A stretch of DNA of 27,482 nucleotides from Mobilitalea sp. (GTDB taxonomy: Bacteria; Bacillota_A; Clostridia; Lachnospirales; Lachnospiraceae). Below, one piece after another: positions 20,417-20,471 of the stretch (position 1 is its first letter; each line of letters begins with the position of its first letter). A program made the translations under genes and the position numbers. The DNA is taken from assembly GCA_029974875.1 (NCBI GenBank), contig JARKQP010000956.1, forward strand, positions 1-27,482. The letters run 5' to 3'. The notes under the pieces were generated by a model. It searched no databases, had not been told where the DNA came from, and was given only the letters and a program-made list of their open reading frames with translations.

Positions 20417-20471
20417 GACCGGGTCCATGCCAGAGCTTTCATGGCAATTTGTGTAGTAAATGGCATGGACA
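20417..20471 (+). promoter_or_regulatory. Leader element copy B (upstream of glutamine synthetase)
   Basis: A 55-nt element aligned without gaps to copy C at 44 of 55 positions. Outer arms GTCCATGCC (20423-20431) and GGCATGGAC (20462-20470) form a perfect 9-bp stem with a 30-nt loop. Inside, TGCCA (20429-20433 region of the 5' arm) could alternatively pair with TGGCA of the ATGGCAAT block, giving two exclusive folds. The ribosome site GAGGAG (20480-20485) begins 9 nt after the 3' arm. Confidence 0.7.
20427..20456 (+). CDS. Candidate micro-ORF in leader element B
   Basis: Nine codons, MPELSWQFV, then TAG. The same nine residues start the micro-ORF at 1804. No good Shine-Dalgarno site precedes it here (AAAGACC only), so translation is doubtful from this copy alone. 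Confidence 0.3.
   Translation: MPELSWQFV

Follow-up and report, generated by a model that had tools for sequence, protein, structure and literature searches.

MITEs are short, non-coding, palindromic sequences with terminal inverted repeats that are dispersed in intergenic spacers, and REP elements are shorter sequences in which the hairpin bears a tetranucleotide of the GTAG type. Those REP sequences that TnpA-REP mobilises are described as palindromic, possibly non-autonomous transposable elements (PMC8266576). The IS200/IS605 elements are described (PMC7290912) as free of both terminal inverted repeats and target duplications; they insert on the 3' side of a fixed sequence of four or five nucleotides, and the hairpins used at their ends carry a guide at their 5' foot.

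Here we analyze a stretch of DNA of 27,482 nt (hereafter, the window), in which three similar sequences precede the genes leuB, glutamine synthetase (GS) and fabK. We estimate with a probability of roughly 60% that these sequences are copies of a small, non-autonomous, hairpin-bearing mobile repeat of ~95 nt, inserted in three intergenic spacers of the window genome. Like the ends-only (PATE-like) elements of the IS200/IS605 type (PMC7290912), the window element is short, is devoid of terminal inverted repeats, is inserted beside a short fixed sequence and has a hairpin (P2) near its end with a possible guide at the hairpin foot; it differs from them in that its other stem (P1) is weak, a second strong hairpin was not seen, and pairing at the foot holds in 3 of the 4 copies known. 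The repeat is thus possibly of the ends-only type, a likeness that we treat as a lead. It is also non-coding, short, dispersed in spacers and palindromic in the manner of a MITE, but its inverted repeat is internal, ~40 nt from the 5' end, and there is no clear target duplication; the absence of terminal inverted repeats, with the complementary arms inside the element, speaks against MITE identity. The GTAG-type tetranucleotide was not seen in the window element, which is longer than a REP. With the structured leader RNAs of Rfam, the element shares placement in 5' leaders and a fold with some covariation, but it lacks a family match.

Three diverged copies and their limits

The initial annotation had placed copies at positions 1794-1868 (A), 20417-20471 (B) and 25581-25635 (C), and all three were recovered with both a weight matrix and a covariance model. 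The 40-column matrix assigned them 62-67 bits, compared with 0.5 for the next best place in the window, and the covariance model (R1, filters off) scored them at 86.7, 84.5 and 76.9 bits, compared with 12.5 for the next place. Since R1 was trained on the same three copies that it scored, the informative figure is the gap to the next-best place. No further copy was found in the 27,482 nt by either method. The reported agreement of B and C at 44 of 55 columns is exact; once the 20-nt insert of A is removed, B and C are identical to A in 47 and 43 of the 55 columns, respectively. Over the core, the window copies are 32-36% divergent (68% identity of A to B and 64% to C) and hence are not recent copies of one master. 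Judging from their sequences, they are distinct members of one repeat family.

The originally proposed limits of the copies proved too short. Alignment of the window copies with a fourth copy (D), from the related genome G415, exposed a longer shared element, which extends ~35 nt further on the 5' side and 5 nt further on the 3' side. Its length is ~95 nt (114 in A, 96 in B and 95 in C), and its ends, AAG(G/T)..GA at the 5' side and GGACATAAT at the 3' side, are not inverted repeats of each other. With the ends set by alignment, the right flank starts with ATG[A/G] directly after GGACATAAT in all 4 copies; this ATG is the start codon at fabK and is probably native at GS. In A, B and D, an AT in the left flank repeats the first two letters of this ATG and could be a 2-nt duplication, the left limit being an estimate. 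The features are collected in Table 1.

Table 1. Coordinates of the repeat copies, their stems, the neighbouring genes and related features (window positions unless a locus is given)
Feature	Position	Strand	Remark
Copy A, upstream of leuB	1760..1873	+	extra 20 nt before 3' arm; 5' limit approximate
Copy A, P1 5' arm GGGC	1762..1765	+	pairs with 1794-1797 GCCC (alignment A6)
Copy A, P2 5' arm TCCATGCC	1801..1808	+	pairs with 1859-1866 GGCATGGA
A-only local hairpin ATGCCTGT/ATAGGCAT	1844..1863	+	competes with P2 for 3' arm
Copy A, right flank ATGG	starts 1874	+
leuB, downstream of copy A	1909..2991	+	TIGR00169 above cut-off
Terminator-like hairpin of GS leader, GGGTGTTCTC..GAGAGCACC then T-run	20317..20360	+	not part of element
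Stretch apparently absent from P0056 GS leader	20365..20476	+	112 nt, inferred from protein
Copy B, upstream of GS	20381..20476	+
Copy B, P1 5' arm GGTT	20383..20386	+	pairs with 20417-20420 GACC
Copy B, P2 5' arm	20424..20431	+	pairs with 20462-20469; 10 bp with 20423/20470 and 20432/20461
Copy B, right flank ATGAGAGGAG	starts 20477	+	holds likely GS ribosome-binding site
GS, type III, GSIII_N (PF12437), downstream of copy B	20494..22602	+	precomputed Pfam of P0001 and relatives
Likely native fabK ribosome-binding region GAGCAGATGGAGGAT	25527..25541	+	99 nt from start codon
Copy C, before fabK	25546..25640	+	abuts start codon 25641; 5' limit approximate
Copy C, P1 5' arm AGTT	25547..25550	+	pairs with 25581-25584 GACC, one pair broken
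Copy C, P2 5' arm	25588..25595	+	pairs with 25626-25633
fabK, downstream of copy C	25641..26576	+	TIGR03151 above cut-off
G488 palindromic repeat, before GS, after terminator	L034:1262-1419		complete
G488 palindromic repeat, before leuB	L121:1203-1356		complete
G488 palindromic repeat, before fabK	L102		reduced

Gene context and the corresponding loci of relatives

The copies had been described as leader elements, and all three indeed lie just upstream of genes; however, C is found inside an operon rather than at its head, downstream of a gene recognized by eye as that of an acyl carrier protein and upstream of fabK. For GS, the NCBIfam models match below their cut-offs. All 3 window copies are in sense orientation at most 45 nt from a start codon, which speaks against plain random insertion (p ~0.0015 under random intergenic placement on either strand, for a hand-made gene list and a threshold picked after the fact). 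Such placement in sense leaders favours a new structured cis-regulatory leader RNA, riboswitch-like or bound by a protein, which would control leuB, GS and fabK and would have been spread or lost fast between species. We consider this explanation rather unlikely: the distance to the start codon varies among the copies, neither a terminator nor a ribosome-binding site was seen in a constant position relative to them, and further evidence on both sides is given below. Promoter-like sites around B, A and C number 2, 3 and 0, compared with shuffle means of 1.2, 2.2 and 0.3, with one site (20466-20493) beginning inside copy B, and the consensus scan found no terminator-like site within or around the copies; an element-borne promoter or terminator was rejected on these grounds. 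The terminator-like hairpin of the GS leader, not flagged by the same consensus scan, precedes the GS of relatives without the element and thus is separate from it. We take this hairpin to be possibly an antitermination site of the ANTAR type. As a hairpin GGAGCAAAGGTGTTCTC..GAGGACACCTTTTT before type III GS, it was read in the window (20317-20360) and in many of the relatives examined (L033, L034, L036, L037, L039, L041-L043, L045 and L046). Elsewhere in the window, the ORF at 4929-6335 combines a LysM-like N-terminal stretch (by eye) with a long 18-nt tandem repeat encoding hexapeptides, such as MNTGTG.

At the corresponding loci of relatives, a second covariance model (R2) found no copy in any of 44 (8 fabK, 13 leuB and 23 GS), with a best score of 14.2 bits apart from the positive control L097, which reached 106.8 bits. 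The proteins of these relatives are 57-80% (FabK), 75-83% (LeuB) and 71-80% (GS) identical to those of the window. The proposal of a leader or control element, including the leader RNA, finds no support at these loci (0 of 44, in relatives at most 83% identical). Given that the proteins of these relatives do not exceed 80-83% identity to those of the window, loss in the relatives instead of gain in the window genome is possible. The same absence bears on another reading, in which the element is a DNA operator for a transcription factor with the arms as half-sites. The TGCC/GGCA words do recur with dyad symmetry, also in the extra 20 nt of A, but all 3 window copies are on the same strand, near start codons or, in the case of C, inside an operon, and as much as ~95 nt is shared. 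We therefore regard an operator as very unlikely.

The proteins of relatives also point to the inserts themselves. In the window, 146 nt separate the acyl-carrier-protein gene from the first matched fabK residue, whereas the same gap measures 10, 15, 19, 26, 27, 52 and 98 nt in 7 of the 8 relatives; in the eighth, inspection by eye shows an overlap of the acyl-carrier-protein gene with fabK. Four of the best 120 FabK relatives (P0126, P0127, P0128 and P0130) have the N-terminal reading EQMEDRR-M. The sequence GARCARATGGARGAY, back-translated from FabK relatives, has a single match in the window when both strands are searched, at 25527-25541. This counterpart of the ribosome-binding site is 6 nt (two codons) from the start codon in the four relatives and 99 nt here, so that ~93 nt were apparently inserted between the fabK ribosome-binding site and AUG. 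The stretch 25543-25640 itself contains no strong fabK ribosome-binding site, the weak GGA at 25631-25633 being 7 nt before the ATG. At the GS locus, 12 of the best 120 relatives are longer than 702 residues, and in one of these, P0056, the protein reading passes from the terminator straight into ATHATGMGNGGNGARAT. The back-translated reading has one window match, with both strands searched, at 20474. Because the P0056 reading skips 20365-20476, the insert of B would measure ~112 nt and lie before the GS ribosome-binding site, which makes it ~19 nt longer than that of C. The insert limits come from GS and fabK only and are approximate, being drawn at the codon level from the proteins of relatives.

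The spacers of relatives contain other elements. In genome G488, the same three spacers are occupied by an unrelated palindromic repeat, the inverted ends of which read TTACAGTTCAGC and make it more MITE-like than the window element (Table 1). That the same three spacers hold another repeat fits tolerated landing places better than a shared regulon; the G488 repeat could also mean no more than that insertions are tolerated here. In three relatives (L129, L130 and L132, of G463, G660 and G444), the leuB leader carries AGGTGGTA(A/T)CACGGA followed by a hairpin and a T-run, an arrangement that resembles a T-box. T-box identity was rejected for the window, where Rfam detected none, the leuB leader included.

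A fourth copy in a related genome

The window proteins are nearest to sequences named Herbinix and Mobilitalea, with best identities of 93% for GS and 98% for FabK, among the 120 best of ~8,000 relatives in each of the two protein searches. The genomes scanned for the repeat encode GS up to 80% identical to that of the window, and their membership in the Lachnospiraceae was taken from this identity. Across overlapping genome sets, R1 matched 25 of 195 relatives of G548 at E <= 0.1 (G415 at 72.1 bits, the rest at most 25.0), 12 of 15 chosen genomes at E <= 1 (only G415 above 20.5 bits) and 3 of 397 family genomes at E <= 5e-4 (G415 and two at 23.8 and 23.7 bits), whereas R2 matched 2 of 245 relatives of G415 at E <= 0.01, namely, G415 and a 27.3-bit match judged unrelated. 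In the large scans of 195, 245 and 397 genomes, scoring was limited to 27, 15 and 13 candidates per genome, respectively (out of up to ~2,180 in the R2 scan), so copies may be missed. With up to 397 genomes per scan, G415 contained the one full copy outside the window. Six weak matches of at most 27.3 bits (L054, L055, L079, L098, L099 and L100) were rejected as unrelated by eye; others in this range were set aside on score alone.

The G415 copy, CCCGGGTCCATGCATGAACTTTAATGGCAATTTGTGCAGTAAAGTGCATGGACATAATTATGG, scores 72 bits with R1 and 107 bits with R2, the training set of which includes this copy. It is intergenic and lies between two ORFs encoded on the opposite strand; thus, it is antisense to both neighbours and leads neither of them. 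One of these ORFs, the stop codon of which the copy adjoins, ends in a LysM-like domain (by eye). The initial annotation is therefore upheld in recognizing a real dispersed element, represented by the three window copies and the one in G415, but the interpretation as a leader or control element does not extend to this single outside copy, which also counts against a leader RNA. An antisense copy is among the outcomes that the initial annotation had named as refuting its proposal, although a single copy outside the window is thin evidence. In the core, the G415 copy shares 79% identity with A, more than A shares with B or C, and it is not at the leuB locus although A is its closest relative. 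Directly 5' of it, at L096:6378-6496, G415 contains an inverted repeat of 30 nt that is 83% complementary and has a hairpin inside. A further genome, G002 (L007), is titled 'Calditrichales bacterium MX18-03' and encodes a GS 66% identical to that of the window; the listed relatives of G002 include genomes with GS up to 72%, and the title may be wrong.

Searches of broader collections assigned the element to no family. Rfam yielded no match in the window at the gathering threshold and, around copy B and the G415 copy, noise only at relaxed thresholds. An 18-base core pattern had 17 matches in 84,980 species genomes, which we judged to be chance: none is titled Bacillota, each of the 17 falls within an open frame no shorter than 178 codons, and in no case is an intact 3' arm present within ~80 nt. 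Six exact-core stretches in viral contigs were likewise rejected as chance occurrences; L001, L002, L022 and L023 fall in coding frames, L024 is nearly identical to L022, and L025 was read as sequence only. Copy B had only partial matches in the plasmid and phage collections. Distant loci in viral contigs related to GS, leuB and fabK (1, 1 and 0, respectively) were left out of the comparison. The element appears to be undescribed, as judged from Rfam and from a search of the open-access literature by text, not by sequence.

Fold, mobility and possible effects on expression

RNAalifold applied to the four copies yielded P1 (GGGC/GCCC and GGTT/GACC), P2 formed by the outer arms, and a weak inner stem. 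P1 has 4 bp, with one pair broken in C. For P2, the previously given arm length of 8 bp in A and C holds, but B has 10 bp, not 9. The consensus fold contains 20 pairs, 3 of them with a compensated change, and 95% of the cells pair. The compensated changes are G-C to U-A in P1, C-G to A-U in P2 of G415, where the arms are TCCATGCA/TGCATGGA compared with TCCATGCC/GGCATGGA, and one in the inner stem. The outer arms are invariant among the three window copies, which alone thus offer no covariation evidence; the few compensatory changes appear with the fourth copy. Among 500 shuffles, the observed value was reached 1 time for cells changed on both sides, 6 times for the covariation score, 8 for paired cells, 17 for pairs changed on both sides and 339 for further pair types, and every slid version scored lower. 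As the test involved four sequences, a structure from their own consensus and shuffles that ignore relatedness, the backing for the fold is modest.

These compensatory changes, in 3 of the 20 pairs, count in favour of a leader RNA, and in B and C, the near TGGCA or the far GGCAT could compete for ATGCC in a switch-like manner. Other observations weigh against the leader RNA: further pair types are no more frequent than in shuffled alignments of these four sequences, 7 of the 8 P2 pairs are invariant across the copies, A, B and C fold with MFE z-scores of 0.07, -3.0 and -1.3, respectively, and variable sites among the window copies are not clustered (permutation p 0.25). A kept hairpin would suit transposition of single-stranded DNA as well as RNA.

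Coding potential was considered in the form of a conserved upstream ORF or leader peptide; with the ATG in TCCATGCC as its start, it would read MPELSWQFV in A and B and MPVHLWQSVR in C. The four differences between A and B within GSMPELSWQFV are all synonymous, and in C, an upstream ATG that has a ribosome-binding-like site could open the frame. However, the frame in G415 (ATG CAT GAA CTT TAA) stops after four codons, the differences between B and C are mostly in second and third codon positions with many residues changed, the frame of A lacks a stop where B and C have one, and no consistent ribosome-binding site precedes the ATG. Furthermore, none of 177 candidate proteins (~182-577 residues) contained the translated element at E <= 10. 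A leader peptide is accordingly highly improbable.

Read on the minus strand, the element resembles the ends-only IS200/IS605 type in several features. It lies 3' of YCAT in all 4 copies, the P2 hairpin is a few nucleotides inside the YCAT-side end, and the weak P1 stem is near the other end. In 3 of the 4 copies, the 5' foot of P2 has an ATG that could pair with the target CAT; this pairing fails in C. This reading is based on four copies, with ends that are estimates. No TnpA (Y1) transposase was recognised by eye among the window ORFs. The repeat would move as DNA, with a TnpA-like enzyme acting in trans on single-stranded hairpins. Where the leaders are transcribed through, the copies would also be present in mRNA, and at fabK, folding may hold the separated ribosome-binding site and AUG near each other, with a presumptive effect on expression.

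The two principal readings could also be combined. An undescribed structured RNA, with its fold kept by compensatory change, would spread as DNA and land just 5' of ATG; at fabK, a fatty-acid synthesis gene whose ribosome-binding site and start codon it would have separated, such a mobile self-folding leader module would amount to transferable translation control. We deem this combination unlikely. Under it, with the fabK ribosome-binding site split from AUG, translation would need either bridging by the fold or removal of the insert from the RNA.

Taken together, the data describe a real dispersed repeat without an Rfam match, which is most likely a small mobile element and possibly functions in gene regulation. 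If the regulatory reading is true, the repeat would represent a new class of RNA that connects leucine, nitrogen and fatty-acid synthesis. The copy at fabK provides a natural test of translation with ~93 nt between the ribosome-binding site and AUG. If it is a mobile repeat, it would constitute a small family, absent from Rfam, that settles close to ribosome-binding sites and would caution against taking repeated leader sequences for regulons.
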